NCBI GenBank assembly: GCA_021824575.1
Contig: JAKAKJ010000027.1
Coordinates: 1 to 64,000 of the forward strand
Source of the DNA: Chloroflexota bacterium
GTDB taxonomy: Bacteria; Chloroflexota; Anaerolineae; Anaerolineales; Villigracilaceae
Length of the DNA stretch: 64,000 nt
Direction: 5' to 3'
Position numbers and translations under genes: made by a program. Each line of letters starts with the position of its first letter. The stretch's first letter is position 1. Positions 4,690 through 57,647 of this stretch are shown in pieces. The notes below the pieces were generated by a model that saw only the letters and a program-made list of their open reading frames with translations, was not told the origin of the DNA and made no database searches.

Positions 4690-4715
4690 TGTTCAAATTT
4701 CTAGGTGGTTCCTAA

Positions 4716-40619: not shown

Positions 40620-41795
40620 ATGCAAAGCATGATTAGTAGCCTGAAGAAAATTTACGAACGCGTTTGGCGTCTGGCAAAATCAGTGCCAGTAGCTTTCAAA
40701 CTAATTGGCCTGGCACTGTTTCCACTTGCCCTGGCCAGCTTTTCGATCATCGCTTTAGATGCGCGTTATTTGCAAAGCATATTGGATGGAAACGATCAAT
40801 TGTTTGCACCATCAGCTGCTTTAGTGGTAACGAGGCACGCCCTTCTCATTGTAGGGGCGGGCGCGGTTTTTGGCCTCTGCATCTCCATATTCCTATTGTG
40901 GCTGATCACGCGCCAGTTGCATCGCCTGGCAGGAACTATGAAACAGGTCGAGGCAGGCAATTTGGATGTACGCGCTGACGTATGGGGTAATGATGAAATT
41001 GGCCAAGTGCAAATTGCTTTCAACTTTATGGTGGAAAGTCTGGTACGCACGCGCCGTGAATTATTACAGCAACATAGCCAGCTTAAGGATCTGGCCTCGG
41101 AGAGGGAACAATTACTGGCAGAACTCCAAAAGAAAGAATTCGAGTTGCATCGTGCGCTTCGTCGGGCCGTGGAGTATCAGGAAGCCGAACGTAAACGAAT
41201 CTCACGTGAACTGCATGACGAAATCGGTCAGGCGCTGACGTCAATCCTGATTCGCCTGAAAGCTTTGCAGGATGAAACCGATGCGGAGACCATCGTCCAA
41301 CGCTTGGACGGCTTGCGCTACCTCACATCTGAATCCATTGAAGAATTACGCCGCCTCGCTGTAGACCTGAGACCGGCCATCTTGGACCATTTGGGCATTT
41401 TGCCTGCCCTGCGCTGGTACGTTCAGCAGTTGGCCGATCAAGCCGATTTGTCAATCCAACTGAGTGCCCCTGAGAAAATGGAAAGACTGCCAGAGGCGGT
41501 TGAGCTAGTACTCTACCGCGTGGCACAGGAGGGACTGACCAATGCCATTCGTCACAGTCAGGCGAGCCACATTGAGGTTGTGTTGGAACAATCGCCGCAG
41601 GTGCTGCGCTTGCGCGTAGTAGATGATGGAGTTGGCTTCGATCCTCAAAAACTGGATCGGGGTTTGGGATTGGTTGGAATCCGCGAGCGCATCGAATTGG
41701 TCAATGGGAACTGTGGAGTTGAGACCGGGCCGGGTGAAGGGACTCGTTTATGGGTGGAGATTCCCTTGTCAAAGGAGGTGGTTAGCCATGCTTGA
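40620..41795 (+). CDS. NarX/LuxR-type sensor histidine kinase with HAMP domain
   Basis: A 391-residue membrane kinase with TM1 at about residues 27-48, a short outer loop of about 30 residues and TM2 at about 75-97. A HAMP domain (RQLHRLAGTMKQVEAGNLDVRA), a coiled coil, a HisKA_3 box with phospho-acceptor His199 in RKRISRELHDEIGQAL, and an HATPase domain follow (VAQEGLTNAIRHSQA, VVDDGVGFD, GLGLVGIRER). The tiny external loop argues against a periplasmic ligand domain; sensing may be in or near the membrane. Its stop overlaps the partner regulator gene by eight bases. Confidence 0.92.
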   Translation: MQSMISSLKKIYERVWRLAKSVPVAFKLIGLALFPLALASFSIIALDARYLQSILDGNDQLFAPSAALVVTRHALLIVGAGAVFGLCISIFLLWLITRQLHRLAGTMKQVEAGNLDVRADVWGNDEIGQVQIAFNFMVESLVRTRRELLQQHSQLKDLASEREQLLAELQKKEFELHRALRRAVEYQEAERKRISRELHDEIGQALTSILIRLKALQDETDAETIVQRLDGLRYLTSESIEELRRLAVDLRPAILDHLGILPALRWYVQQLADQADLSIQLSAPEKMERLPEAVELVLYRVAQEGLTNAIRHSQASHIEVVLEQSPQVLRLRVVDDGVGFDPQKLDRGLGLVGIRERIELVNGNCGVETGPGEGTRLWVEIPLSKEVVSHA

Positions 41796-42435
41796 AGGCG
41801 TACGCATCCTCCTCGTGGACGATCACTCCGTCATGCGTAGCAGCTTGGCTTTGTTGTTGAACACACATGGGGCTGAAGTTGTGGGCGAAGCTTCCGATGG
41901 GAAGAGTGGCATCGCCGAAGCGTTGCGCCTGCGCCCCGATGTGATTCTGATGGACATTACCTTACCAGATATGGATGGCATCGAGGCCACGCGCGAGATT
42001 TGTAAAGCTTGGCCACAGGCACATATTCTGGCGTTGACCATGCATAGCGAAGAAACTTACCTGGTGCCATTTCTGGAAGCAGGTGGCGCGGGCTACATCC
42101 GTAAAGCTGCTGCCGACCGGGATCTCTTCACAGCTATTGAGACGGTACAAAATGGAAAAGTCTTTTTAGGCACCAGTGGCATGGACGTACTGGTGCATGA
42201 GCATCGTCCTGCCGGGAATAAACCTGTCCCCCCGCGGCTGGCATCCCTCTCTGACCGTGAACGTTTTGTTCTGGAACAGACCGTGCGCGGTTTTACCAGC
42301 CGTGAGATCGCTGAGCAGTTGAATATCAGTCCACGGACGGTAGATACCTACCGCTACCGCGTCATGGAAAAATTGGGGGTAAGGCACCGGCACGAGCTGG
42401 TTGAGTACGCCCTGCAGAACCATCTGCTCGACTGA
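41788..42435 (+). CDS. LuxR/NarL-family response regulator
   Basis: A 215-residue regulator: receiver domain with acidic pocket Asp11-Asp12 and phospho-acceptor Asp56 (VILMDITLPD), then a LuxR-type helix-turn-helix (SDRERFVLEQTVRGFTSREIAEQLNISPRTV, split across about residues 150-180). ATG 41788 follows AAAGGAGGTG and overlaps the kinase gene. It probably controls the molybdoenzyme operon starting 115 bases later. Two dyads (42460-42470 and 42523-42542) lie in that gap. Confidence 0.92.
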   Translation: MLEGVRILLVDDHSVMRSSLALLLNTHGAEVVGEASDGKSGIAEALRLRPDVILMDITLPDMDGIEATREICKAWPQAHILALTMHSEETYLVPFLEAGGAGYIRKAAADRDLFTAIETVQNGKVFLGTSGMDVLVHEHRPAGNKPVPPRLASLSDRERFVLEQTVRGFTSREIAEQLNISPRTVDTYRYRVMEKLGVRHRHELVEYALQNHLLD

Positions 42436-42459
42436 ATGTCGCGTGAATTCGTCCCTTCC

Positions 42460-42470
42460 ATGTAGTACAT
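42460..42470 (+). promoter_or_regulatory. Palindrome ATGTA-G-TACAT, possible regulator site
   Basis: A perfect 5-bp dyad around one central base, 25 bases past the response regulator stop and 80 bases before the molybdoenzyme start. NarL-family proteins bind short inverted heptamers, so this is a candidate operator. No experimental or comparative support is available. Confidence 0.35.
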
Positions 42471-42522
42471 TTCTTTACAAATACTTAATCGTTGTTGAGG
42501 CAGACAAAGCCAGCCCTCTAAC

Positions 42523-42542
42523 GTAAGATAACAACATCTTAC
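42523..42542 (+). promoter_or_regulatory. Inverted repeat GTAAGAT / ATCTTAC just before the molybdoenzyme start
   Basis: A perfect 7-bp dyad with a six-base AACAAC loop ends eight bases before ATG 42551, where a ribosome site would normally lie. It could be an operator or an mRNA hairpin that limits translation. No Shine-Dalgarno sequence is visible before this start. Confidence 0.4.
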
Positions 42543-42550
42543 TGTAAACG

Positions 42551-45448
42551 ATGACTGGCTTGAATCGACCTGAAAAACATTCGCTCTCAATTCTAATTGT
42601 CGTCAAACGGGGGTACTTGTACGACTCTTTGGCACAGGTATTGGGCCAGTTGAATTTCCCCAAGCAATTCCTTCAAGCAGCATCATTGGAAGAACTCATA
42701 GCAAGGCTGGATTCCCAACCTGAGTTGATCGTTGCTGCACCGTTTACCTTGCCCGGAAAGATCGAAGACTATGAAATACTGCGGCACCGTGCGAAGGCCA
42801 GCCCGTTAATAATCATCCTACCTGAAAATACCCGCGATTATCGCGATGCTGCGGTTTTACTGGGCGCCAATGACATTGTACTGGCAAGGCGTGTTGCCGA
42901 GGATTTGATTCCCTCGGTGGAGAGATTGTTAAGCCGCAAACGGCTGGTCAGCCGCGTGGTAGGTCAGATCGCTGCCAAAGCACACACGGGCGCACCCGCG
43001 GGGGAATCTTGTTACAAGATTCCCACTTTAGATCAGAATATCCAACAAAAAAGTAACCGTGCAGTCGAACGACTGGCAACCCGCCTTTCTTCAACAAGGC
43101 CCAGCCGTTCTGTGAAAACGCAACCTTCCGTCCCGGGGACGCGGGTCTATTTGAAGGGGCTGAAACTCTCAGCAACTTCGCCCACGAACCCACTTGATGA
43201 AAAGACCATGCGCACGGCCTGTAACCTGAATTGCGGCGGACATTTTTGCGGCATGAAGGTCACCGTGCGCGGCGGGCAGATTGTTAAGATTGAGGCAGCA
43301 GATTTCCCTGACGATCGTTATCGCCGCATTTGCCTGAAAGGCATCAGCCACGTGCAGATGATGGTACATCCCGATCGGTTGCTGGTTCCGTTGAAACGAC
43401 ATGGCAAGCGCGGCTCCGGTGAGTGGGATCGCATTTCATGGGATCAGGCGTTGGACGAAATCGCATCCCACATCCAAAAATTGACTGCCAACTTTGGGGC
43501 GCAGAGCATGATGTTCTTCCCATACTCGGGGCAGTTGAGCGTCCTGAATGGAATTAGCGGAATTTATCTTCGGCTTGCCAGTGCATTGGGAGCCTCAGGT
43601 ACAAACCTGAATGAATTTGGTGTGGACAGCGCCGTACCCAGCGGCATCGAAGATACTTTTGGCAAAGGTTCAGGATACCTGGCTAACGATTTTTCCGACT
43701 TGCCCAACTCGCGCTTGGTGCTAATCTGGGGTGCGAATCCGGTTCAAAGCCGGATGAATTGGTGGCAGTTCTTTCTGGATGCCAAGCGCGGTGGGACAAA
43801 GTTAATCACTATTGATCCGCGTTTCACCACGACCGCATCCAAAAGCGATGAGTGGTTGGCTGTACGCCCTGGCACAGACCTTTATCTGGCTCTCGCCATG
43901 TTGAACAGCATCATCGAATCGAATTGGATTGACCGGGAATTTACGCTCCAGCACACCGTAGCGCCATTATTGGTACGGCAGGATACAGGTGAATATCTGC
44001 GCTGCACACCGGGCGACAATCCTTTTCGGGTATGGGATGAACAAGCGCAGAAAGCCGTCGCCCCCGATCGGGCCGCACAGCCGGCGCTGAATGGCCACTA
44101 TAAAGTTGGCAGCATAGACTGTCGTCCAGCCTTCGACCTGTTGCGCGAAATGTCGGAGCGTTACACGCCAGAATTGGCGGAACAAAAAACAGGCGTCCCA
44201 GCATCTCGCATCCGAGCATTGGCATACGCTTTCGCTCATGAAAAACCGGCGCGCATCTTTTCTCTCTATGGCATTGATCGTTGGCATAATGGCGCGACCT
44301 TTGGACGCTTGATCGCCACACTGGCTGCCCTGACCGGTAACTTGGGCAAACCGGGAGCTGGCGCTGGAGTGGATGGGTTTGCAACTGGTATTCTCTTCAC
44401 CAGCGATTTTTTGATGTATCCCGGTGGAACGAAATACCATGCCGTCAATGTCGCAGCACTGCCTCATTACGTTGTAGATGGCAAGCCCTATCCCATCAAA
44501 GGCGTGTTCGCAGCATTCAGCAATTGGATCAACCAGTGGCCAGATCAAAATTTCTTGCGCCAACAGATCTTGCCCAGACTTGACTTATTCGTAGTAGCCG
44601 ATCACTTTATGACCGAGACGGCTGGCTGGGCAGACTACGTGCTACCCGCAGCCAACCTGTTCGAGCGGGAAGATATGGTGGTGGGGCCTGGCCCCTACAT
44701 TCAATATCAGCCACAGATCATTGACCCGCCAGGCGAGTGCCGCTCCGATTTGCGGATTGCATCTGGTCTGGCCGAACGGCTGGGCTGCGGGGGATATTTT
44801 TCTGCCACGTCCAGTGAATATCTCCCTAGAATCTTTGATACCGAAAAAATGCTTGCCGGATTGTCTTTCGGTGACTTGCGAAGAAACAGCCTGCTCGAAA
44901 GGAACTGGTCCGATGCAGAGTTGGTGGCTCACCGCGAATTCAAGTTTGCTACACCCAGTGGGCGTGCGGAATTTTATGTGGAGCGCCTGCTGCCTTACTC
45001 TCATGCTTTACCGGACTACGAGCCACCTGCCGAAGCTGACCCGGATGGAAAACTGATCGAGAAATATCCGCTGGTATGCTTGACGGAGCACAGTCGCTAC
45101 CGCGTCCATTCGACTTTTGTGAACACGCCTTGGTTGCGTGAGTTGGACCAGGAACCGTACGCTGTTGTGCACCCAGACACGGCGCGTTCGCGGAACATTC
45201 GGGAAGGCGATGTGGTGCGGCTCTTCAATGATCGCGGCTTTGTAGTGTTGCGAGCACGAATCAATCAAGCCATTCCAAGCGGAGCAGTTTATTTGAGCCA
45301 GGGTTGGCAATCAGCAGATTATCACGCCGGTCATGCCCAGACCCTTACACACTCAATTGCAAATGACGAGAATGCCTATGGAGCAAATAGCTCTTTCTCT
45401 GATGTATTGGTTGAGATGGTCAAAGTGACGGAAGGGGAATTTGCATGA
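42551..45448 (+). CDS. Molybdopterin oxidoreductase (DMSO-reductase family) with N-terminal pseudo-receiver domain
   Basis: A 965-residue fusion. Residues 10-135 have the alternating strand/helix pattern of a response-regulator receiver, but the Asp pocket is gone (LSILIVVKRG, ELIVAAPF) and the Lys is absent (GANDIVLARR). A Ser/Thr/Arg-rich linker leads to a full molybdoenzyme from about residue 220. Its cluster ligands are Cys224-x3-Cys228-x4-Cys233-x27-Cys261, with LVLIWGANPVQSRMNWW, TLAALTGNLGKPGAGAG and a C-terminal cofactor domain (STFVNTPWLREL). There is no Tat signal, so the enzyme should stay in the cytoplasm. Partners follow at once: an FeS subunit (ATGA overlap) and a TorD chaperone. 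The substrate is unknown. The start codon is uncertain because no ribosome site is seen. Confidence 0.85.
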   Translation: MTGLNRPEKHSLSILIVVKRGYLYDSLAQVLGQLNFPKQFLQAASLEELIARLDSQPELIVAAPFTLPGKIEDYEILRHRAKASPLIIILPENTRDYRDAAVLLGANDIVLARRVAEDLIPSVERLLSRKRLVSRVVGQIAAKAHTGAPAGESCYKIPTLDQNIQQKSNRAVERLATRLSSTRPSRSVKTQPSVPGTRVYLKGLKLSATSPTNPLDEKTMRTACNLNCGGHFCGMKVTVRGGQIVKIEAADFPDDRYRRICLKGISHVQMMVHPDRLLVPLKRHGKRGSGEWDRISWDQALDEIASHIQKLTANFGAQSMMFFPYSGQLSVLNGISGIYLRLASALGASGTNLNEFGVDSAVPSGIEDTFGKGSGYLANDFSDLPNSRLVLIWGANPVQSRMNWWQFFLDAKRGGTKLITIDPRFTTTASKSDEWLAVRPGTDLYLALAMLNSIIESNWIDREFTLQHTVAPLLVRQDTGEYLRCTPGDNPFRVWDEQAQKAVAPDRAAQPALNGHYKVGSIDCRPAFDLLREMSERYTPELAEQKTGVPASRIRALAYAFAHEKPARIFSLYGIDRWHNGATFGRLIATLAALTGNLGKPGAGAGVDGFATGILFTSDFLMYPGGTKYHAVNVAALPHYVVDGKPYPIKGVFAAFSNWINQWPDQNFLRQQILPRLDLFVVADHFMTETAGWADYVLPAANLFEREDMVVGPGPYIQYQPQIIDPPGECRSDLRIASGLAERLGCGGYFSATSSEYLPRIFDTEKMLAGLSFGDLRRNSLLERNWSDAELVAHREFKFATPSGRAEFYVERLLPYSHALPDYEPPAEADPDGKLIEKYPLVCLTEHSRYRVHSTFVNTPWLRELDQEPYAVVHPDTARSRNIREGDVVRLFNDRGFVVLRARINQAIPSGAVYLSQGWQSADYHAGHAQTLTHSIANDENAYGANSSFSDVLVEMVKVTEGEFA

Positions 45449-46062
45449 AGCACTACGTGATGGTCATTGACTTGCAAGCCTGCACCGGCTGCAACACGTG
45501 CTCCGTGGCGTGCAAGCAGGAGAACAACCTACCTGAAAATGTATGGTGGACCGAAGTGTTGACGCTCGGCTCAGATGGGAATGACATGCCGGCTGGTGTG
45601 TATCCGGAACTGACCATGGATTACCTGCCGATGGGTTGCCAGCATTGCGCCAATGCGCCCTGCGTAGAAGTTTGTCCATCCACGGCTACTTATCGGTTGG
45701 AGACTGGTGTAGTGGTGCAAGACCCAAGTCTGTGCATCGGTTGCCGCTACTGTATGATGGTTTGTCCATTTACCGGGGTGCGGGTGTTCTCAGAAGACCA
45801 GCAACCTTATGCTACTTCATTTCCAACTGGCAGCAATCCCGTGATCCATCGGCCCAAGACGGTTGAGAAATGCACGTTTTGTGCCCATCGTCTGGAGCGG
45901 GGCTTGGAACCCGCTTGCGTGGAAACCTGCCCCATGCGCGCCCGCACGTTTGGCGATATCAGCGATCCCACTAGTGAAGTCTCGGAATTGTTACGCACGC
46001 GTTCGCACTTTCAACTCTTGATCGAAAAAGGAACAGAACCTTCTGTTTACTATCTGACATGA
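45445..46062 (+). CDS. DmsB/NrfC-like four-cluster ferredoxin subunit (cytoplasmic complex)
   Basis: A 205-residue electron-transfer subunit with four Cys groups: CTGCNTCSVACKQ, CQHCANAPCVEVCP, CIGCRYCMMVCPF and CTFCAHRL with CVETCP. This is the normal pattern for four [4Fe-4S] clusters, as in DmsB/PhsB. It overlaps the end of the pseudo-receiver molybdoenzyme gene by four bases and the TorD gene by four bases. It has no signal peptide. No membrane anchor gene follows in this operon, so its electron donor may be a soluble ferredoxin or the polyferredoxin encoded at 49411. Confidence 0.92.
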   Translation: MKHYVMVIDLQACTGCNTCSVACKQENNLPENVWWTEVLTLGSDGNDMPAGVYPELTMDYLPMGCQHCANAPCVEVCPSTATYRLETGVVVQDPSLCIGCRYCMMVCPFTGVRVFSEDQQPYATSFPTGSNPVIHRPKTVEKCTFCAHRLERGLEPACVETCPMRARTFGDISDPTSEVSELLRTRSHFQLLIEKGTEPSVYYLT

Positions 46063-46781
46063 ACAATAGAGAAATCAACCTTCCCGCTTCAAACAATGTT
46101 GTCGATGATCCGATTGGTCGTGCTTGTGGCATCCTGACTTCCGTATCTCGTAGCCGTGCCACGATCTATCGCTGGTTGTCGCTGGGCTTTTATCCTCCTG
46201 ACCGGGAATGGGTCGAGGCTGTTAATCGGGAACAACTTACAGCGGAGTTGACCGATGCGACTTCCTGGCTTGGCGCAGATCAGCAAAAGTTGCTCCTTGA
46301 AATTGAAAGGCTGGCTGGTCATCAACGATCTCCGTTGGAAGAATGGCAGGCGGAATATAACCGCCTGTTTGGCAAAAGCATCCAGTACGTTTCGCCGCGG
46401 GAAGGCAGTTATCGCTGGCGCGATGTTTTGCATATGACCGAGACCACCGACAACTTGACGGCAGCTTTACAACAGGAATATCACCAGTTCGGTTTGTTGC
46501 CGCTCACAGGCATGGAAGATACGGTGGCGGTCGAATGTGAATTTCTGGCGTACCTTTGCGAACGAGAGACCGAAAACTGGGCTGCTCATTCCATGAGTTC
46601 TGCGCGCGAACTGCGCCAACAGCAGCGGAACTTTTTGATCAATCATCTAGGCCTATGGTTCCCTGAATTCTCGCGCAATGTAACTGATTGCGCGGCTGAT
46701 TCTTTCTACGATCATTTTGCGAGTTTCGGGAATATCTGGCTGTCCTTCGAGTACGGGGCAGGGTACCTGGGAGTCGCATGA
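46059..46781 (+). CDS. TorD/DmsD-family molybdoenzyme chaperone
   Basis: A 240-residue all-helical protein that matches TorD-type chaperones. Features include RSRATIYRWLSLGFYPPDREWV, EWQAEYNRLFGKSIQYVSPREG (the conserved Y/F-x2-LF...P-x-E patch), and the loop MEDTVAVECEFLAYLCERE followed by a C-terminal helix pair. These chaperones hold a molybdoenzyme for cofactor insertion. Here the partner enzyme has no Tat signal, so the role must be maturation rather than export control. ATGA overlaps with both neighbours tie it to the complex and to the kinase gene. Confidence 0.85.
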   Translation: MNNREINLPASNNVVDDPIGRACGILTSVSRSRATIYRWLSLGFYPPDREWVEAVNREQLTAELTDATSWLGADQQKLLLEIERLAGHQRSPLEEWQAEYNRLFGKSIQYVSPREGSYRWRDVLHMTETTDNLTAALQQEYHQFGLLPLTGMEDTVAVECEFLAYLCERETENWAAHSMSSARELRQQQRNFLINHLGLWFPEFSRNVTDCAADSFYDHFASFGNIWLSFEYGAGYLGVA

Positions 46782-48706
46782 GCATGATGACGATCTATTT
46801 CATCAGCGGGCTTGCGGCTTTTAGTTTGGGGTTGGCAGTGCTGCTCGAAAACCGCGATTCAAGCCGCTTGCCGTTGGGAGGACAACTTCCCTGGCTGGCT
46901 GCCTTTGGATTTGCGTATGGGCTGGTGGAATGGCTCGATATGTTTTTGGGATATGGACCGTCACCTGCATCGCGGTCAGTGCTAATCACTGCCCGCTCAA
47001 TCCTTCTGCCTCTCTCGGCATTGTTGCTCGTCCGCTTTGGCGTTGGCTTGGTAAATGATGCGGGTCCCATCCCGGATTGGATTGAGCTATCGCCGATTCT
47101 GTTGATCGTCCCGTTTGGTTTGCTGCTGGGATACGCGTTGGTGGTCGCGTTGACTTCACCTTCTCTAGCCACTGCCGCGGATATGTGGTCACGCTACCTA
47201 TTGTTTCTACCTGGCAATATTTTGGCTGCTTTTGGCTTTTATCGCCAGTGGCGCGGACTTAAAGATGCAAACTTGAGCGAGGTACGTGGCCAGGTTTTGG
47301 GAGCATCCATTGCTTTTGTCCTCAACGCCCTTGTTGTGGGTCTGATTGTCTCGCCTGCTCCGCATCTGCTGGCTCCGTGGCTGAACGATGACATGATTCT
47401 GGCATTGACTAGAATTCCCGTTCAATTCTGGCGCATGGTATCTAGCTTGGCGTTGTTATTTTTCGTCGTCCGCGCACTGAACGTCTTTGAAGCCGAACGC
47501 AGACATCAACTGAAGAAACTGGATGAAGAACGCACTCATGCCCAGGATGCTACCCTGATGGCGCAGTTGGAGGCCCGCCAAGTAGCAGAAAACTGGACAG
47601 ATGCGTTAGTCAGCTTGAGCCGCCGCGTCGCCAACATGGACAACGTGGATGATACTTTGATGGAAATCGTTGCGATGGCCAGACGCTTGTTAGATGCAGA
47701 TACAGCTGTGCTGGGGCTCTGGGATGAAAACATGGAACATCTGTTGGCAAAATGCTATGCCACTCTCGATGGCGCTTTCATGGCTAACGACCAACCGGTG
47801 ACAATCAACTTGATCTTAAAAGCCATCCGTTCAAGCAACCCCAGCCGCTACCCCGAAGATTTCCGCGTTTCCAACCAACCCTGGGAATGCCCATTCCTGA
47901 ATCGGGAGGTCAAGTCAACGGCTATAGTGCCATTGCACTTGGAAGATCAATCTTTTGGCGGTTTATGGGTTGCTCGTGTGGATGAACGTTCATTTTCGCC
48001 AACCGACATCATGGGATTGGAACGACTAGCTGATCAAGCCGTCATTGCCATCGAACATGCGCTGATGACCAAACGCGTGCAATCGTTGGCAATCTACGAG
48101 GAACGGACGCGCATTGCCCGTGAGATGCATGACGGTGTAGCCCAAATTCTAGGCTATCTGAATTTGGAAATGCAAACCTTGGAATCGTTGCTTGAACAAG
48201 GAGACAATAAAACTGCTTTGTCCGAAATACGCAAGGCAAAACAGAGCATCAAGCTAACCCACGACGACGTCCGCGAAAACATCCTCAGTTTGCGAACCAC
48301 GCTCTCAGGGGAAGAAGGACTGATCCCGGCTTTGGAGAAATACGTGAGTGAGTTTGGTATCCAGACCGGGATTGATACCCACTTAATGTGCGACATGAAA
48401 ACCCAGCCTCACTTATCGCCGGTGGCTGAGGCACAGCTGGTGCGTATCATTCAAGAGGCGCTGGCAAACGTGCGGAAACACGCCCACGCCAGTCAGGTAC
48501 AAGTCAACCTGGCCTGCCACGACCATTCATTATGCACAACAATCACGGACGATGGAATTGGCTTTGCCAATGTTCCCACGCGCGGCCATTATGGCCTGGC
48601 CACCATGCGCGAACGCGCGAAGGAAGCCAATGGTGGATTGACCATTACATCGCGTGAGAACGAAGGTACGCAGGTCAAACTTTGGCTGCCTTTGATGCAG
48701 CAGTAA
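46778..48706 (+). CDS. Sensor histidine kinase: 7-TM N-terminus, GAF, HisKA_3, HATPase
   Basis: A 642-residue protein. About seven hydrophobic helices (residues 3-240) form a membrane sensor. They are followed by a coiled coil, a GAF domain (about 275-430, with Cys in LAKCYATLDG and PWECPFL), His451 in RTRIAREMHDGVAQILGYL and an ATPase domain (IIQEALANVRKHAHASQ, ITDDGIGF). The GAF Cys residues might hold an FeS or haem group, but no clear ligand set is visible. The gene overlaps the TorD stop (ATGA) and precedes its response regulator by 20 bases. It likely reports membrane or redox state to the same operon. Confidence 0.9.
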   Translation: MSMMTIYFISGLAAFSLGLAVLLENRDSSRLPLGGQLPWLAAFGFAYGLVEWLDMFLGYGPSPASRSVLITARSILLPLSALLLVRFGVGLVNDAGPIPDWIELSPILLIVPFGLLLGYALVVALTSPSLATAADMWSRYLLFLPGNILAAFGFYRQWRGLKDANLSEVRGQVLGASIAFVLNALVVGLIVSPAPHLLAPWLNDDMILALTRIPVQFWRMVSSLALLFFVVRALNVFEAERRHQLKKLDEERTHAQDATLMAQLEARQVAENWTDALVSLSRRVANMDNVDDTLMEIVAMARRLLDADTAVLGLWDENMEHLLAKCYATLDGAFMANDQPVTINLILKAIRSSNPSRYPEDFRVSNQPWECPFLNREVKSTAIVPLHLEDQSFGGLWVARVDERSFSPTDIMGLERLADQAVIAIEHALMTKRVQSLAIYEERTRIAREMHDGVAQILGYLNLEMQTLESLLEQGDNKTALSEIRKAKQSIKLTHDDVRENILSLRTTLSGEEGLIPALEKYVSEFGIQTGIDTHLMCDMKTQPHLSPVAEAQLVRIIQEALANVRKHAHASQVQVNLACHDHSLCTTITDDGIGFANVPTRGHYGLATMRERAKEANGGLTITSRENEGTQVKLWLPLMQQ

Positions 48707-48726: not shown

Positions 48727-49395
48727 ATGCTTCCGCTAAAAATTTTGGTCGCTGACGACCATCAACTTTTCAGGCAGGGATTGGTCAGTTTGATGCAGAC
48801 CCGCCCTGATTTGGTGAAGGTTGTAGGGGAGGCTTCCTCAGGCCGCGAGGCTGTTGCTTTGGTTCGGGAACTTCGGCCTGATGTTGTATTGCTTGACATC
48901 TTCATGCCGGAAGGAGATGGATTGCAGGCCGCCAGAGCTATCCGTGAGACTGCGCCCGAGACGGCCATTGTCATGTTGACATCCTCCGAGCTGGATGAGC
49001 ATTTGCACGAAGCCATGCGAATTGGTGTCTCTGGTTACTTATTGAAAAATCTGAACTCTTGCGAATTATTTGATCTGTTGGGCGGGATCGAACGCGGCGA
49101 GGCTGCCATGACTCGCACGATGGCTGCCCGGGTCTTACGAGAAGCTTCGCGTCATTCAAGTGAATCCGGCCTGCCTTCAGATGAATTGACTGAACGCGAG
49201 ATCGAAGTGCTGCGACTGATCGTTCAGGGCGCAAGCAACCCTGAAATTGCGCAACAACTGTGCATTACGGTGAACACGGTCAAATCACATGTGAAGAACA
49301 TCCTGTACAAGCTGCGTCTGGAAAATCGAACTCAGGTAGCGGCTTACGCCATGCAGTCCGGGTTGGTTCTTAGCGTGAGCGATTCAACCAATTGA
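48727..49395 (+). CDS. LuxR/NarL-family response regulator
   Basis: A 222-residue regulator with pocket Asp10-Asp11, phospho-acceptor Asp57 in DVVLLDIFMPEGDG and a C-terminal LuxR helix-turn-helix (ELTEREIEVLRLIVQG, then ASNPEIAQQLCITVNTVKSH). It partners the 7-TM kinase just upstream and is distinct from the regulator at 41788. With the same-strand genes on each side it lies inside one long operon. Confidence 0.92.
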   Translation: MLPLKILVADDHQLFRQGLVSLMQTRPDLVKVVGEASSGREAVALVRELRPDVVLLDIFMPEGDGLQAARAIRETAPETAIVMLTSSELDEHLHEAMRIGVSGYLLKNLNSCELFDLLGGIERGEAAMTRTMAARVLREASRHSSESGLPSDELTEREIEVLRLIVQGASNPEIAQQLCITVNTVKSHVKNILYKLRLENRTQVAAYAMQSGLVLSVSDSTN

Positions 49396-49410: not shown

Positions 49411-50592
49411 ATGGAATTTCTTACTGTAATGGAACGTTTGGCAGCCCTCGATCATTCTGCGGTGACGTATAACCCGGGACACTGCCTGCATGCTCGCGAT
49501 AAATTTGTTGAATGTGAGCTTTGCTTGGGCATATGTCCGGCGGAAGCAATTCAACCCGGAAAACCGCCTCGTTTCAATGCCGACGCTTGCTCCGGTTGTT
49601 TGGCCTGTCTGCCATTGTGTCCATCCGGTGCTTTCAACGCGGACGATGCAGTCCGCGATCTGCTCAATTGCATAACGCACGTCGAGAGCATGCAGATCGA
49701 GTTGGTCTGTCAAGCCAATCCACATGCGGAGAACGGCGTTTCAAAAGATACGGTGGGAATCTGTGTGCGCGGCTGTTTGGCTGGGCTTGGCAGTGGAACG
49801 TATCTCGCTCTAGCTGCGATGAGTTTGGAGAAAGTGACCGTTCGTTTGGATGCGTGTTCCGAGTGTCCGTGGAATCTGCTAAAAGGGCAAATTGAAAAAC
49901 AAGTCGAAAATGCCAATTATTTGTTATCGGCGTGGAATAAGGATGACTTTATACAAACCGCGACTGAACTTGAAACGAGTTGTCAGCGTCCGCTATGGGA
50001 GGCGCAGAATCCACCCCTTTCGCGGCGTGACTTGTTCATCATGCTCTCGCATCAAGGACAGACGACTTTGGCGCGTGCCATCGAAAAAGAAGGAACGCCC
50101 AGGGGCAAGCAGGCAGGGCGCGGATACCGACGAGCGGCAAATGCCATCGCACATTTGCCGAAACCTGAAAAGGATATATCCCTGGATCGACTGGGATTTG
50201 GCATTGTGACAGTGAGCGATGCTTGTACGGCTTGCGGCAGTTGTGCGCGCTTCTGCCCCACCGGTGCGCTCGATTTTGAAATTGACAAAGAAGCCTGCAC
50301 TTATTCGCTGAGTTTTACGCCGCAACAATGTATCGGCTGTCAGGCTTGCTTGCATGTGTGCGCTGATGAGGCTGTTAGTTTGGACGTGGCTCCTTCACTG
50401 GATCAAATTTTTAAGTCTAAAGAACCGCTTGTCATTCGTAGTGGAGAATTATCTCGTTGTGCAAATTGCCATGCCTACTTTGCCGCCCGTCCCGAAATCC
50501 GTCTATGTCCAAACTGTGAGTTCCGCCAGAAGAATCCTTTTGGCTCGCGTTTGCCCAAGGGATTCAATTTTTCCAAAGCGAGAGAATCATGA
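49411..50592 (+). CDS. Polyferredoxin-type 4Fe-4S protein with C-terminal Cys4 motif
   Basis: A 393-residue soluble protein. The N-terminal part has CELCLGICPAEA and CSGCLACLPLCPSG cluster motifs. A middle region of about 150 residues includes CVRGCLAGLGSG and CSECPWNLLKG. A second pair follows (CTACGSCARFCPTG and CIGCQACLHVCADE). A final CANCHAYFAARPEIRLCPNC looks like a metal ribbon. At least four FeS clusters are expected. No signal peptide or membrane helix is visible. The stop overlaps the radical SAM gene (ATGA), so the two act together, perhaps as electron carrier and maturase for the molybdoenzymes (inference). Confidence 0.82.
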   Translation: MEFLTVMERLAALDHSAVTYNPGHCLHARDKFVECELCLGICPAEAIQPGKPPRFNADACSGCLACLPLCPSGAFNADDAVRDLLNCITHVESMQIELVCQANPHAENGVSKDTVGICVRGCLAGLGSGTYLALAAMSLEKVTVRLDACSECPWNLLKGQIEKQVENANYLLSAWNKDDFIQTATELETSCQRPLWEAQNPPLSRRDLFIMLSHQGQTTLARAIEKEGTPRGKQAGRGYRRAANAIAHLPKPEKDISLDRLGFGIVTVSDACTACGSCARFCPTGALDFEIDKEACTYSLSFTPQQCIGCQACLHVCADEAVSLDVAPSLDQIFKSKEPLVIRSGELSRCANCHAYFAARPEIRLCPNCEFRQKNPFGSRLPKGFNFSKARES

Positions 50593-51914
50593 TTGCTGAT
50601 ATTGACCGCGATACGTTAACGAAGATCAAGAATAATGCATTGCGGGATTATGCTCGGAAATATGTGAATATCTACGATGACTTCCTAAAACAAATCGCAG
50701 ACTTTGGCGTTGAATTGGAGACGTACGATAACCACATGGAAATTGTGGAGCGATTGGAGCGATTGCGTCAGAAGGGCGCATATCTGCGTAATGACAACAA
50801 GAGTGTTTACATTAATAATATTTCACCGTCCTGTGTGGCTTGTCAGACCGGGGTAGGCAGCGCAACCTACTTCATCTCACTGCGCTGTCATCGCAATTGT
50901 TTCTATTGCTTCAATCCCAACCAAGAAAATTACGAACGCTTCTCCACAGAAAAGCGGGATGTTTCAGCAGAATTGGAAAGCGCGGCGGCGCAACACGTTC
51001 GTTTGCAGCATCTGGCTTTGACGGGTGGCGAACCACTACTCTTTAAAGAAAAGGCTTTGGATTTCTTCCAAACTGCACAACAAAAATACCCGCGCGCTTA
51101 CACGCGTTTATATACCAGCGGCGATCAAGCGGATGCAACTACATTGAAAGCTTTGAAAGAGGCCGGCTTGCAGGAAATCCGCTTCAGTATCCGTATGCAC
51201 GATACGGAAAAGGCGCGCCATTTTACCCTGGACCGTATTCGATTGGCAAAGGAATATATCCCTTATGTGATGGTCGAGATGCCGGTGATGCCCGGCACGT
51301 TGGACGACATGAAAAGCATCCTGACCGAACTGGAACAAATTGGCATCTTCAGCATTAACCTGTTGGAACTATGTTTCCCGCTTAACAATGCCGCCGAATT
51401 TCAGAAACGCGGTTATCACATCAAAGCCCGGCCTTATCGTGTGCTCTACAATTATTGGTATGCAGGTGGCCTGCCGATTGCAGGTAGTGAAGAACTCTGC
51501 CTGGATTTGTTGGAGTTTGCAATTGATTCCGGATTCAAAATGGGGGTGCACTATTGCTCGTTGGAAAACAAACATACCGGGCAGATTTATCAGCAAAATC
51601 AGGCAGGAATGCCATCATCCATGATTGCTGCTTCGAGGAAAGATTTCTTTCTGAAAACGGCCAAAGTATTTGGAGATGATATCCCAAAAGTAAAGGAGAT
51701 TTTTGAAAGGAAGAAAAAAATAGCTTATCAAGAACAACCCGATTATGGCTACCTTGAGTTCAACGTCAGCCACATCCGGCAGCTTTTCAACCTGGACGTC
51801 GAGATTGGAATCTCGACCAGCGTGCTCGAACAGCGTGCAGATGGACAAGTACTACGTGAACTCAGGCTCGATTTGACAACCCCGCAATCCTTCGATTATT
51901 CAAAGGATATATAA
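50589..51914 (+). CDS. Radical SAM protein of unknown function
   Basis: A 441-residue enzyme. The radical SAM motif CHRNCFYCFNPNQ lies near residue 100, with GGEPLLFKEKAL and a TIM-barrel-like run following. An upstream pair (CVACQTGVGSATYFIS) may bind an extra metal. The first 75 residues are helical and charged. It resembles general radical SAM enzymes more than MoaA, PqqE or SPASM maturases, as no C-terminal Cys-rich domain is present. ATGA coupling to the polyferredoxin gene and position between regulators and Tat genes suggest maturation of, or a product used by, the molybdoenzymes. Confidence 0.8.
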   Translation: MIADIDRDTLTKIKNNALRDYARKYVNIYDDFLKQIADFGVELETYDNHMEIVERLERLRQKGAYLRNDNKSVYINNISPSCVACQTGVGSATYFISLRCHRNCFYCFNPNQENYERFSTEKRDVSAELESAAAQHVRLQHLALTGGEPLLFKEKALDFFQTAQQKYPRAYTRLYTSGDQADATTLKALKEAGLQEIRFSIRMHDTEKARHFTLDRIRLAKEYIPYVMVEMPVMPGTLDDMKSILTELEQIGIFSINLLELCFPLNNAAEFQKRGYHIKARPYRVLYNYWYAGGLPIAGSEELCLDLLEFAIDSGFKMGVHYCSLENKHTGQIYQQNQAGMPSSMIAASRKDFFLKTAKVFGDDIPKVKEIFERKKKIAYQEQPDYGYLEFNVSHIRQLFNLDVEIGISTSVLEQRADGQVLRELRLDLTTPQSFDYSKDI

Positions 51915-53187: not shown

Positions 53188-53550
53188 CCCATGTGATTGA
53201 CGCAAATCCACTGGTAACAGACAAAATTCCAAAGGTTGTCAATCCGACAAAATAGAACAACCCGGCTGGCAAGCAGAGCCGGGTTGTTCCATGCCGGATG
53301 GAAGTTACTGGTTTCCTACAAATCCCAAAATCACCCACTTGGGTGAGGCAGGACTCTTCTGCCGGGGGATGTTGTACTTGCGGGGTGGAAGTATCCTATT
53401 CGTGCAAAAAATTACAAAGATACATGCTTAATAAGTCAAGTCAGGAGCGTGCCTATTGAAACATAAGCTTTGTAGTCCAAATGAGCCTTTGGCTCAGCTC
53501 CTTATGGAGCAGGTCGTTATTTCCGCAGATGAATTTCTGGAGGAAAAGGT
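53188..53550. other. 363-base region between the Tat genes and the exported molybdoenzyme
   Basis: Contains the strong hairpin at 53255-53289 and probably the promoter of the second operon in the AT-rich stretch near 53400-53450 (GTGCAAAAAATTACAAAG and TACATGCTTAATAAG). GGAGG lies at 53539-53543, before ATG 53551. No gene is seen in it. Confidence 0.45.
53255..53289 (+). terminator. Strong hairpin after the Tat genes
   Basis: A perfect 13-bp stem GAACAACCCGGCT / AGCCGGGTTGTTC with a nine-base loop. There is no long T-run behind it, so it may be a Rho-assisted terminator or mRNA end-protection site. It separates the 42551-53187 operon from the exported complex. Confidence 0.65.
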
Positions 53551-55965
53551 ATGAGTGAAAAAAATTTCATCAAGAAAGCTTTGACCGAAACAGTCATGAC
53601 CCGCCGCAGCTTCCTGAAATGGAGCGCTGCTTTGGGTGGTACCGCTGCATTGGCGGGAGGCTTGAACTTCGGTCTCAAGACAGTTGAAAAGGCAGCCGCT
53701 GCATCCGCGCCAGAAGAGATCATGACGATTGGTTGCTACCACAACTGCGGCGGACGCTGCATTTTGGGCGCAGTTGTCAAGGATGGAACTGTTGTCCGCC
53801 TGGTTCCTGATCCGACCACAGAAGAAGACCCGATTCATAACCCGCGGGCCATTCCGTGCCTGCGCGGTCGCTCACAGATCCATCGCGTCTATGCGGCGGA
53901 GCGCCTTAAATACCCGTTGAAGAGAACCGGGAAGCGTGGCGAGGGCAAGTTCGAACGCATCTCCTGGCAGGAAGCGTTGGATACCATTGCCAGCGAACTT
54001 AAGCGCATCAAGGACAAATATGGAAATGAATCCTTGTATATGCACTATGCGTCAGGTGTGAACTGGACAGGCCCGAATGGGAGAGGTCCATTGGCCCGCC
54101 TGATGATTTTGTTCGGCGGTTACATGAATTACTACAATTCCTACAGCACCGCCTGCTACAGCTCTGTGATGCCATACATCACAGGTGGTTCTGGCAACAC
54201 AGCCGACGATGTGCTCAATGCAAAACTGGTGGTGCTCTTTGGTGACAATTCCGTCGTGACTCGTGCTGGTGGTGATAATAACGGATACTACTACATGAAA
54301 GCCAAGGAAAACGGCACCAAGTTCATCGTAGTGGATCCAATAAAGACCGATACGGCTGCCGCCTTGGAAGCCGATTGGTATCCCATCTATGGTGGTACAG
54401 ATGTTGCATTGATCGCGGCGTTGTCTTACGTGATGGTCAAGGAAAACTTGTACGACAAGGATTTCATGGCTACTCACTCGGTCGGTTTTGATGAGGATAC
54501 GCTGCCGGAGGGTGCTCCCGCAAATAGCTCTTGGATGGCCTACATCATGGGGCAAAGCGACGATGGGGTTGAGAAGACACCCGAATGGGCCTCTCAAATT
54601 ACCGGTCTCCCGGCTGAACGGATTGTGAATCTGGCGCGCGAGATGGCGAACACGAAACCCTGCGCCATGTTCCAAGGTTGGGGCTGGCAACGTCGTGCCT
54701 ATGGCGAACAACCAGTGCGTGCCCTCCCAATTCTAGCTGCTATGACGGGAAACTTCGGCGTCAGCGGCGGCGGTCCCGGTATGCGCCCGTCTGGCATGAG
54801 CTTCAAGATAACCAGTGCCCCCCCTGTACCGGCCAATCCCATCAAGGCCGCCTTCCCAGTATTCAAATGGCCGGATTTCATTACACGCGGTACTGAGATG
54901 ACCAGCGGCCCTGTAGATCGCATTCATGGCGCTGATAAACTCGATGCCAGCATGAAGTTCATGTGGAACTTCGGTGGCAACACCATTATCAACCAGCACT
55001 CTGATGTCAATGGCACCGCCAAGGTGCTTCAGGATGAAAGTCTTCTGGAGTTTATTGTGACCGTTGATGTTCAGATGACACCCAGCGCGAGATTCTCGGA
55101 CATCGTATTACCTGAAACAACCGGATTCGAATCTGACAACATCATTACCGGTGAGGGTCACGGCGAGAAAGGTAATCATGCCTGGGTATTGTATAACCAT
55201 CAGGTTGTCCAACCGTTATTCGAAGACCAACCATCCTTGTGGATCGCAGAACAATTGGCGGATCGCCTTGGGCTTGGCGATGCCTTCCGCGATGGACATC
55301 AGACACCTGATGACTGGATGCAAGATATGGTCGCCTCTGCCCAAAAGAATTACTCGGATTTCCCATCCCTGACTGATTTCAAGAAAGTGGGCATCTACAA
55401 AGTTAGCAGTAACAAACCGGTGATTGCATTTGCTGACTTCCGGGCTGACCCGGTAGCCAATCCATTGGCAACCCAAACCGGTAAGATTGAAATCTACTCA
55501 CCTTTCCTGGCCAGCCAGAACGATCCGAAAGAAATCCCGGCGATTCCCAAATACATTCCCGAATGGGAAGGCGTTAGTGACCCGCTGCGGAAGAAGTATC
55601 CATTGCTGATGTCAACGACACACTGGGTCGCCCGCTCACACTCGACCTTCGATAACGTGGATTACCTGCGTGAAGCCCACCCGCAAGCCATTTGGATCAA
55701 CGCTTTGGATGCGAAACAGCGCGGTATCAAGAACGGCGATATGGTCAAAGTGTACAACGACCGTGGTGAAGTCCACCTGCCAGCTTATGTGACCAATCGT
55801 ATTCGCCCAGGTTACACCAATATGCCGCAGGGCGGCTGGTATACGCCAGATAGCAGCGGTGTGGATACACGTGGTTGTGCAAATGTCCTTACCAAATATC
55901 AACCCACACCGTTTGCGAAAGGTAATCCTCAGCACACGAACCTGGTACAGGTCGAGAAGGTCTGA
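53551..55965 (+). CDS. Tat-exported DMSO-reductase-family molybdoenzyme catalytic subunit (DmsA-like)
   Basis: An 804-residue enzyme. The Tat signal has TRRSFLKWSAALGG, with Arg18-Arg19, and a hydrophobic run with Ala residues to about 50. FeS ligands are Cys62-x3-Cys66-x3-Cys70-x32-Cys103 as in DmsA. The probable molybdenum-ligand region reads NYYNSYSTACYSS, with Ser as in DmsA-type enzymes. Later come MFQGWGWQRRAYGEQPVRAL and a C-terminal cofactor domain (MPQGGWYTPDSSG). It sits outside the membrane with its DmsB- and DmsC-type partners encoded directly downstream. Relatives reduce S-oxides, N-oxides and other compounds; the substrate here cannot be fixed from sequence. Confidence 0.92.
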   Translation: MSEKNFIKKALTETVMTRRSFLKWSAALGGTAALAGGLNFGLKTVEKAAAASAPEEIMTIGCYHNCGGRCILGAVVKDGTVVRLVPDPTTEEDPIHNPRAIPCLRGRSQIHRVYAAERLKYPLKRTGKRGEGKFERISWQEALDTIASELKRIKDKYGNESLYMHYASGVNWTGPNGRGPLARLMILFGGYMNYYNSYSTACYSSVMPYITGGSGNTADDVLNAKLVVLFGDNSVVTRAGGDNNGYYYMKAKENGTKFIVVDPIKTDTAAALEADWYPIYGGTDVALIAALSYVMVKENLYDKDFMATHSVGFDEDTLPEGAPANSSWMAYIMGQSDDGVEKTPEWASQITGLPAERIVNLAREMANTKPCAMFQGWGWQRRAYGEQPVRALPILAAMTGNFGVSGGGPGMRPSGMSFKITSAPPVPANPIKAAFPVFKWPDFITRGTEMTSGPVDRIHGADKLDASMKFMWNFGGNTIINQHSDVNGTAKVLQDESLLEFIVTVDVQMTPSARFSDIVLPETTGFESDNIITGEGHGEKGNHAWVLYNHQVVQPLFEDQPSLWIAEQLADRLGLGDAFRDGHQTPDDWMQDMVASAQKNYSDFPSLTDFKKVGIYKVSSNKPVIAFADFRADPVANPLATQTGKIEIYSPFLASQNDPKEIPAIPKYIPEWEGVSDPLRKKYPLLMSTTHWVARSHSTFDNVDYLREAHPQAIWINALDAKQRGIKNGDMVKVYNDRGEVHLPAYVTNRIRPGYTNMPQGGWYTPDSSGVDTRGCANVLTKYQPTPFAKGNPQHTNLVQVEKV

Positions 55966-55978
55966 GAGGAGTTGAACT

Positions 55979-56614
55979 ATGGCTAAACAAATGGCTTTTT
56001 ATGTGAACATAGCTGAATGCGTGGGCTGTAAAGCCTGTCAAGTTGCATGCAAGGATAAGAACAATCTTCCTGACGGGATCCGCTGGCGAAGGGTGTTTGA
56101 ATACGAAGGCGGCGAATGGGTTAACCAAGCTGGGACCTTGATCCCCAGCAACCTGTTTACATACTTCGTTTCAGCAGCCTGCATGCATTGCCAAAACCCG
56201 ATCTGTCTGGAAGTCTGTCCGGCTGAGGCAATTTCCAAACGCGCTGACGGCATCGTTTTGATTGACGATCAGAAGTGCGTTGGCTGTCGATATTGCTCGT
56301 GGGCTTGTCCTTACGGCGCGCCCCAATTCAATGAGAAGCTCGGTGTCATGACGAAATGTACGTTCTGCTCCGACCTAATTGACCAAGGTGGACATCCTGC
56401 TTGCGTTGACGCTTGTCCCTACCGGGCTCTGGAATTTGGCGATCTTGAAGAACTACGAGCCAAACACGGCAATTTTGACAATCCAGCCCCATTGCCCGAT
56501 CCATCCTTCACCAATCCTTCCATTGTCTACGGTGCCAATGGTGAGACAGAGGTATCCAATCAGGCAACTGGTCACATCATGAACCTTGAGGAGATTCCAA
56601 ATGAACACGCGTGA
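55979..56614 (+). CDS. DmsB-like four-cluster ferredoxin subunit
   Basis: A 211-residue FeS subunit with CVGCKACQVACKDKNN, CMHCQNPICLEVCP, CVGCRYCSWACPYGAP and CTFCSDLI plus CVDACPYRAL, giving four [4Fe-4S] clusters. It carries electrons between the membrane anchor and the exported catalytic subunit and should ride through Tat bound to it, since it has no signal. It starts 13 bases after the dmsA-like stop (GAGAGGAG upstream) and overlaps the dmsC-like gene by 14 bases. Confidence 0.94.
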   Translation: MAKQMAFYVNIAECVGCKACQVACKDKNNLPDGIRWRRVFEYEGGEWVNQAGTLIPSNLFTYFVSAACMHCQNPICLEVCPAEAISKRADGIVLIDDQKCVGCRYCSWACPYGAPQFNEKLGVMTKCTFCSDLIDQGGHPACVDACPYRALEFGDLEELRAKHGNFDNPAPLPDPSFTNPSIVYGANGETEVSNQATGHIMNLEEIPNEHA

Positions 56615-57521
56615 TTGGGCACTGATTACCTTTACCATCCTGACCCAAATGTCCGTAGGGTCCTTCCTTGTTCTAGGGATCTTGCACTATTATGCCAGCC
56701 GTAAAGCGGGAATGAAGGAAGCTGACCGCTTGAGCGACTATGCACTTCTGTCAATCATTGTCGCTTTTGGTTTGGCGCTACTGGCTTCGCTGTTGCATTT
56801 GGGCAATCCGCTCAATGCGCCGCGGGCAGTAACTCACTTGGCTACCTCCTGGTTGAGCCGGGAGATTTTCTCCGGTGTCATCTTTGCCGTCCTGGCAGCT
56901 GTCTTTGCCTTGATGCAATGGCGTAAGATCGGCTCGTTTGCTGTACGTAACGTGATTGCTTGGATCGCTGCCATTGTGGGCTTGATTCTGGTTTTCGTTG
57001 AATCCCAAGTCTACATGTTGCCGACCGATCCTTCATGGAACACCTTTGCTACGCCTATAACCTTCTACGCCACAACGCTGCTGCTTGGTTCCCTGGCGAT
57101 GGGCGCTGCCCTTGTAGCCAATTACGCTTACATCCAAAGAAAAGATTCCAACGGTGCCAAAGTACAGGCTGAACTTTTGCGAAATGCATTGCGAGGTATC
57201 GCGGTAGCCTCAGTAGTATTGCTCGGCATTGAATTTGTGGTGATCCCACTCTATGTAGCCTACCTGGCAACCGGAAGTTCTGCCGCTATCGCCAGCACCC
57301 AATTAATGATTGGTCCTTTTGGGCTGATATTCCTGTTACGGTTGCTTTTCGCCTTCGTTGGCGCTGGTGTGTTTGGTCTGTTCCTTTATCAGATTGCCCA
57401 AGCAGCTGGTAAGGAAAGGACACTGAGCTATCTCGCCTATTGTGCTTTTGTACTCGTGCTGGTTGCTGAAGTACTCGGGCGCTTCTTGTTCTATGCGACC
57501 CGTGTACGCATTGGCGTCTAA
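56601..57521 (+). CDS. DmsC-like membrane anchor subunit
   Basis: A 306-residue membrane protein with eight hydrophobic helices. The family signature ASLLHLGNPLNAP followed by SWLSREIFSGVIFAVL (HLG-x-P ... SxEIxSG) is clear. It should oxidise menaquinol and pass electrons to the DmsB-like subunit. ATG 56601 is preferred because GAGGAG lies seven bases upstream; an upstream in-frame codon at 56586 lies in the dmsB-like gene. Confidence 0.9.
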   Translation: MNTRDWALITFTILTQMSVGSFLVLGILHYYASRKAGMKEADRLSDYALLSIIVAFGLALLASLLHLGNPLNAPRAVTHLATSWLSREIFSGVIFAVLAAVFALMQWRKIGSFAVRNVIAWIAAIVGLILVFVESQVYMLPTDPSWNTFATPITFYATTLLLGSLAMGAALVANYAYIQRKDSNGAKVQAELLRNALRGIAVASVVLLGIEFVVIPLYVAYLATGSSAAIASTQLMIGPFGLIFLLRLLFAFVGAGVFGLFLYQIAQAAGKERTLSYLAYCAFVLVLVAEVLGRFLFYATRVRIGV

Positions 57522-57595: not shown

Positions 57596-57647
57596 TCTCA
57601 GTTCCGTGCAAGTGTGACCATAGAAGTAATTGAGACAAACGGTTTCT

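Follow-up and report, generated by a model that had tools for sequence, protein, structure and literature searches.

A predicted pseudo-receiver domain fused to a DMSO-reductase-family catalytic subunit between two two-component systems in Chloroflexota

Aspartate-less receivers (PMC12632262, PMC4395418), and pseudo-receivers as defined in section 5 of PMC12632262, are receiver folds without the active-site residues. Less common output domains, some of them enzymatic, are reported to be enriched among the aspartate-less receivers (PMC12632262, PMC4395418), and the switching of bacterial pseudo-receivers has been called a mystery by specialists (PMC12632262). Here we describe a pseudo-receiver joined to a molybdoenzyme. 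The fusion gene lies at 42551..45448 on the forward strand of a 64,000-nucleotide stretch of Chloroflexota contig JAKAKJ010000027.1, hereafter the window. Unlike the described pseudo-receivers, the window domain was missed by Pfam PF00072. The string "molybd" is absent from the main texts of PMC12632262 and PMC4395418, the output-domain table of the latter lying outside that check. Among the papers listed by literature searches with few subscription journals covered, no title or beginning of an abstract describes a receiver-molybdoenzyme fusion or a molybdoenzyme as a kinase partner. The initial annotation, made from the sequence alone, had named no known common family with this architecture, a view that our searches support and to which they add that the whole seven-gene order is conserved.

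The gene is a single open frame of 965 amino acids, and its coordinates and frame were verified as exact. Pfam matched Molybdop_Fe4S4 at residues 217-271, Molybdopterin at 276-743 and Molydop_binding at 842-935, and the scores of PF04879, PF00384 and PF01568 above cut-off place the protein in the dimethyl sulfoxide (DMSO) reductase family. The trio spanning residues 217-935 in one exact frame bears out the proposal of a fusion to a complete catalytic subunit of this family. Three segments can be delimited: the pseudo-receiver domain (residues 1-132, fold 12-132; 42551..42946, +) by profiles, hhalign, AlphaFold2 (AF2) and residue alignment; a variable linker (residues 133-216; 42947..43198, +) by alignment and, in two pairs of relatives, a raised ratio of nonsynonymous to synonymous substitution (dN/dS); and the catalytic subunit (residues 217-965; 43199..45448, +) by Pfam, alignment and profile alignment to the Protein Data Bank (PDB). 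The protein had also been said to lack a twin-arginine translocation (Tat) signal, and Pfam TAT_signal indeed gave no match at E<1 while matching two control proteins, the enzyme encoded at 53551 and that of locus L071. The fusion protein therefore seems, as judged from its sequence, to be a non-exported, cytoplasmic molybdoenzyme. The full protein scored 346.9 against NCBIfam TIGR03479 (type II DMSO reductase), below the cut-off of 984.75.

The receiver identity of the first part was not decided by single-sequence tools and required a profile of the relatives. Residues 1-218 alone matched no Pfam family at E<1, PF00072 included, and only one response-regulator model of NCBIfam, weakly (E 0.078). 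The profile of nine family sequences, two of them near-identical, gave 76 PDB matches at E<=1, the best 60 of which comprised 58 proteins that are receivers by name and two designed proteins; the best match was the NarL-type spr1814 (E 6e-7). Comparison by hhalign with the eight receivers of the adjacent response regulator RR1 gave a probability of 90.9 (E 1.1e-6) at 14% identity. The AF2 model of residues 1-141 has the (beta-alpha)5 order of strands and helices of receivers, with a mean predicted local distance difference test score (pLDDT) of 69.3 and a predicted template modelling score (pTM) of 0.60. Foldseek found 393 PDB matches to this model at E<=0.001, led by the HupR receiver, the best 50 containing receivers as far as their titles tell, and VIA-align, applied to the Foldseek matches as a second look, returned Z values as high as 16.9. 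An AF2 model of the whole protein (mean pLDDT 43) was set aside, except that the receiver elements recur in it. Profile, hhalign and AF2 thus agree with the receiver pattern first noticed in about the first 135 residues, and the structure prediction, whose failure to give a receiver would have spoken against that pattern, gave one. On a model of moderate confidence, a receiver fold is well supported as the prediction for the first part.

In the alignment with RR1, the five catalytic positions DD1, DD2, D, T and K of the window domain are V18, K19, A63, L90 and A112, and none of the residues of a phosphorylatable receiver (the acidic pair, Asp, Thr/Ser and Lys) is present. Ten pseudo-receivers were aligned, eight from fusions of the window type (L036 was omitted as a near-copy of L033) and two from genomes G191 and G223. 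None of the ten retains DD1, DD2, T or K, and the position of the catalytic Asp is occupied by Asp five times, by Glu and by Thr twice each, and by Ala in the window. The claim that every phosphorylation residue is lacking is accordingly correct for the window protein but not as a rule of the aligned pseudo-receivers, half of which keep the Asp. The metal-binding acidic pair, Thr and Lys are needed for normal phosphotransfer. Since they are lost, normal phosphotransfer is not expected, and control of the pseudo-receiver by its own phosphorylation appears unlikely.

The fusion occurs at nine loci, namely the window, L031, L032, L033, L034, L035, L036, L037 and L069, of which L033 and L036 are near-identical. 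A scan of genome contigs with a two-row alignment found seven fusion loci, all in Chloroflexota-type metagenome-assembled genomes, where a single-protein scan had found none; a profile search found G175, G210 and G143. Four loci bear two labels (L032 is G003, L069 is G175, L034 is G210 and L037 is G143). The G003 protein, from a second species in the genus of the window, shares 57% identity over its full length. In L034 the reading frame of the catalytic subunit shifts near residue 815 (near 4529-4715), possibly through a sequencing error, and L037 stops at residue 476 at a contig end, a fragment from residue 677 onward lying on another contig of the same genome. Among 396 genomes of the class, at least five (G000, G003, G143, G175 and G210) carry the window-type fusion, and at least two (G191 and G223) carry a pseudo-receiver fused to another molybdoenzyme. 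Of 400 genomes drawn from the phylum, G000 and G003 alone gave strong scores (185 and 213 bits; next best 52.5 bits). With at most ten candidates scored per genome in the class and phylum draws, these counts are lower bounds. A whole-protein search of the class at E 1e-80 returned 12 of the 396 genomes: the five fusion genomes, G297 and six with unfused enzymes. The G297 protein (L109) is 37% identical, and its contig ends before the N terminus, hence it is silent on the age of the fusion relative to the family. Eight unfused relatives, about 30% identical (L110-L115, which are these six, and L003 and L004 from an earlier search for relatives), gave no receiver profile match below E 1 and have no Tat motif. 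A receiver in L114 and L115, considered from a tblastn overhang into the receiver region, was rejected on the same profile result. Among plasmids, 18 records matched the whole query, the best ten all in the catalytic part at 35% identity or less, and none matched the N-terminal part of the fusion.

The initial annotation named a downstream start near 43200, which would leave the first part untranslated, as the case against it. We found no such start: Met stands at the catalytic boundary in two of nine alignment rows, there is no conserved internal start, and promoter-like conservation lies upstream of the receiver. We calculated dN/dS by the Nei-Gojobori method for seven pairs, in four of which, none including the window, the receiver value was usable. 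Receiver and catalytic part gave 0.111 and 0.124 for L033/L035, 0.087 and 0.112 for L032/L033, 0.121 and 0.113 for L032/L035, and 0.118 and 0.160 for L069/L034, the three pairs among L032, L033 and L035 not being independent; L033/L036 were too similar for the calculation. Linker values were 0.276 and 0.317 in two of the four pairs, the synonymous rate (dS) of the linker being saturated or undefined in the other two. These ratios show that the receiver is under purifying selection comparable to that acting on the catalytic part, a result that holds for the close relatives and not for the window copy. From the sequences, the first part of the fusion looks translated.

Just before the pseudo-receiver start, ten aligned upstream regions share three blocks, one GT-rich, one CAGACA-like and one TAnnAT-like, which in the window are a GT-rich stretch at 42461-42479, CAGACA at 42501-42506 and TAAGAT at 42524-42529 (the whole at 42461..42529, +). 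We take these blocks to be a conserved, putatively promoter-like footprint; a plain sigma-70 scan of 42300-43400 gave no match. Directly before the start codon lies a perfect inverted repeat, GTAAGAT-N6-ATCTTAC (42523..42542), which is present once in the window even with two mismatches allowed and is not seen in any of the other nine upstream regions; different inverted repeats occur in some of these. Its chance value of 0.04 applies to a pattern picked after it had been seen and is no fair test. For an operator scan, a matrix was made from the sites of eight of the ten upstream regions; with the window site omitted from it, that site ranked only 6th. A weak operator-like site at 53398-53416, 153 bases before the gene Mo2 described below, ranked 3rd in the same scan and is suggestive only.

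The fusion had been placed between two two-component systems, and this arrangement proved to be conserved across loci. Upstream are the histidine kinase HK1 (Pfam HAMP, HisKA_3 and HATPase_c; 40620..41795, +), a conserved neighbour, and the NarL-type response regulator RR1 (41788..42435, +; Pfam and alignment), which has all five phosphorylation residues and whose start was set from the alignment at 41788 rather than 41623. Downstream follow an iron-sulfur subunit, FeS (45445..46062, +; Pfam and NCBIfam), in which four 4Fe-4S Cys motifs are visible by eye and a signal peptide is not; a TorD/NarJ-type chaperone (46059..46781, +), matched by Pfam Nitrate_red_del and scoring 68.0 against TIGR03482, below its cut-off of 152.3; the kinase HK2 (GAF, HisKA_3 and HATPase_c; 46778..48706, +), with a hydrophobic N terminus that appears multi-pass by eye; and the NarL-type response regulator RR2 (48727..49395, +). 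Both HK2 and RR2 were assigned by Pfam and are conserved neighbours. The order HK1-RR1-fusion-FeS-chaperone-HK2-RR2 stands on one strand in eight loci, the window and seven others. In the genome of L037, one contig carries HK1-RR1-fusion and a second the enzyme end, FeS, chaperone, HK2, RR2 and Mo2; if both contigs are assumed to hold one gene, the ninth locus has the same order. Pfam found no membrane anchor subunit among the seven genes of the module.

Mo2 (53551..55965, +) encodes a DMSO-reductase-family subunit with a Pfam TAT_signal match, and is a candidate target of the module. It is followed by FeS2 (55979-56614) and a DmsC-type anchor (56586-57521). Mo2 is also a neighbour in other loci, standing directly after the module in L031, L034, L069 and the second contig of G143, and 4 kb past RR2 in the window. 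L032, L033, L035 and L036 as retrieved end before any Mo2, and in G003, the genome of L032, the contig of the fusion holds another molybdoenzyme match some 8 kb farther downstream. Polyferredoxin-like and radical SAM proteins adjoin the module in the window (49411-51914) and are paired also in L032, L033 and L036. Between the Mo2 anchor and a second chaperone-like gene at 60718, the window further encodes a large protein with WD40-looking repeats and, by eye, three CxxCH motifs (57630-60692).

A second layout is found in G191 and G223, two genomes of one genus, where a pseudo-receiver behind HK1-RR1 runs without a stop into an 869-residue Tat-type molybdoenzyme (positions 1200-4235 of L071 and 5287-8325 of L072, both on the minus strand; frames of 1012 and 1013 residues). 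The G191 protein has a Pfam Tat signal at 158-178, and the same SRRSF motif is seen by eye in G223. In both, a Shine-Dalgarno-like sequence precedes an internal ATG, so that the gene could yield a long product as well as a short, exported one, and the fusion is possibly a dual-start gene. In a quick tree of 42 rows, with long branches flagged and the L071 and L072 rows retaining most of the receiver part, the two enzymes were sister to the Mo2 that follows the module in L069 and L034 (Shimodaira-Hasegawa-like approximate likelihood ratio test 96), and the seven window-type enzymes included formed their own clade (100). The pseudo-receivers of the two layouts group together in a single clade (100/99). 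Loss or gain of the segment between pseudo-receiver and Mo2 appears to connect the layouts. The linker of the window-type fusion contains a short motif (YLKGL at residues 200-204, FLRGL in seven relatives and VLHGL in one) that resembles the FLK of SRRxFLK, and G191 and G223 have a true Tat-type stretch there. The idea that FLRGL is a remnant Tat signal stayed unproven in weak tests. With a small Tat matrix, the FLRGL segment was not the top-scoring one in any of the nine sequences (ranks 2 to 161; p from per-segment shuffling 0.0008 to 0.39), and in the sequence from the window the top segment was this motif shifted to a different register. FLRGL and SRRxFLK did not line up in a global profile alignment, and none of the six linkers, out of nine, that were searched against NCBIfam gave a match.

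The fusion is read directly from the sequence, and a signalling role is inferred. We tentatively favour, with a little less than even confidence, a cytoplasmic molybdoenzyme coupled to two-component signalling through a docking pseudo-receiver and working, by analogy, like a regulatory hydrogenase. The kept fold and the lost switch would fit a docking surface, the coupling to two kinases and two regulators is deduced from their being fixed neighbours, and the fixed place between the same two sensor-regulator pairs suggests that the enzyme forms part of a signalling circuit. Joined to a Mo2-type enzyme behind HK1-RR1 in G191 and G223, the pseudo-receiver is moreover tied to the Mo2 system. A narrower form, possible but rather doubtful, is a regulatory molybdoenzyme that would sense an electron acceptor in the cytoplasm, its pseudo-receiver plugging into one or both flanking NarL-type systems, and would control the exported respiratory relative. 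In the favoured reading, the molybdoenzyme would pair with FeS and be matured by the chaperone of the operon, and the pseudo-receiver, still receiver-shaped, would dock on a flanking kinase or on the receiver of RR1 or RR2. The redox or substrate state of the Mo and Fe-S centres would then alter kinase or regulator output, which in turn would control the exported respiratory Mo2-FeS2-anchor encoded beside the module. Such a system would be an analogue of HoxBC with HoxJ/HoxA in which the molybdoenzyme is the sensing enzyme. A regulatory or docking domain on a sensor or controlled enzyme, as initially annotated, fits the conserved gene order, its functional side being a proposal.

Several points weigh against the favoured reading. 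The pseudo-receiver of G191 and G223 is less constrained than the catalytic part (dN/dS 0.38 and 0.18). The window pairs with L032 and L031, saturated at dS of about 3, gave 0.176 and 0.170 for the receiver, the catalytic value against L031 being 0.095. Two-component genes often flank an enzyme that they merely regulate, and neighbourhood alone is no proof that enzyme and kinase communicate. Finally, the four cluster motifs of FeS suggest genuine electron transfer, something that a pure sensor could do without.

A rival reading is a metabolic cytoplasmic oxidoreductase that senses nothing itself, with kinases or regulators binding the pseudo-receiver and setting activity, assembly or localisation. 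We consider such gating unlikely, although it has the complete catalytic domains and Fe-S Cys, the FeS partner with its four motifs, the chaperone gene and the same conserved synteny on its side; the module has no anchor gene, and two complete sensor-regulator pairs seem more than the gating of one enzyme would need. Decidedly less probable is an oligomerisation or maturation module that reuses the dimer faces of receivers and has no part in signalling, the two-component systems merely regulating transcription of the operon. Fifteen of the pseudo-receiver structures available are dimers in the absence of phosphorylation (PMC12632262), and the promoter-like region sits between RR1 and the fusion; yet the eight unfused relatives manage without the domain, which is also found on a different molybdoenzyme beside the same HK1-RR1.

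Descent from a single-domain receiver gene bears on a further alternative. Triads of histidine kinase, response regulator and single-domain receiver in the same order occur in other genomes of the class (L047, L049 and L051); the active site is whole in L051, where Glu stands in place of the first Asp in the acidic pair, and lacks one residue in each of L047 and L049. We suggest that the pseudo-receiver may have descended from such a triad, and the tree did not place the triad receivers beside the pseudo-receivers with support. That the domain is a leftover, a triad receiver that merged with the gene after it and persists as a tolerated N-terminal extension, is very improbable: the triads with a lost residue and the raised dN/dS in G191 and G223 would agree with it, but the receiver ratios in four pairs (0.087-0.121) are as low as those of the catalytic part (0.112-0.160), with a higher linker in two, and the tree gives no neighbouring position. 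An artefact of chimeric assembly or a wrong start codon is hardly credible, for although the seven loci of the contig scan are all from metagenomes, nine loci in several assemblies share the junction region, no internal start is conserved, and purifying selection is seen among relatives.

The coupling that we favour would have consequences beyond this locus. With an enzyme partner whose cofactor can be read by spectroscopy and candidate partners set by gene order, the function of a pseudo-receiver could be put to a direct test, and an enzyme that does sense would represent the molybdenum equivalent of the regulatory hydrogenases. Domain databases can miss such fusions because the receiver falls below Pfam detection.

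The catalytic part itself appears intact. The [4Fe-4S] residues C224, C228, C233 and C261, together with D359, are invariant in nine rows, and in the PDB profile alignment D359, adjoined by the invariant S360, falls opposite residue 170 in the 5e7o/4ydd chain. We take Asp170 of that chain to be a Mo ligand, although none of the papers listed by a search for this role mentions Asp170. An Asp ligand to molybdenum defines the type II DMSO reductase family (PMC6650914). Because the catalytic Cys and D359 are conserved, the enzyme is probably active, and it may be type II-like.

The nearest solved structure is a perchlorate reductase-type subunit (4ydd, 5e7o), presumably PcrA, whose catalytic domains and four Fe-S Cys are kept in the fusion. 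In contrast to it, the fusion has an N-terminal pseudo-receiver and no Tat signal that we could find, and lies far below the TIGR03479 cut-off. NarG is not known to have a receiver domain. Like the fusion enzyme, NarG is described as a non-exported catalytic subunit with a TorD/NarJ-family chaperone in its operon (PMC4464133), but it uses the membrane anchor NarI (PMC4464133), for which the module has no counterpart gene. In its proposed function, and in that alone, the module is likened to the regulatory [NiFe] hydrogenase system HoxBC-HoxJ-HoxA, where a cytoplasmic redox enzyme is coupled to a kinase and a regulator that control kindred enzymes (PMC6978683). Here the metal is Mo instead of NiFe, a pseudo-receiver is fused to the enzyme, there are two sensor-regulator pairs, and the system is known from its sequence.

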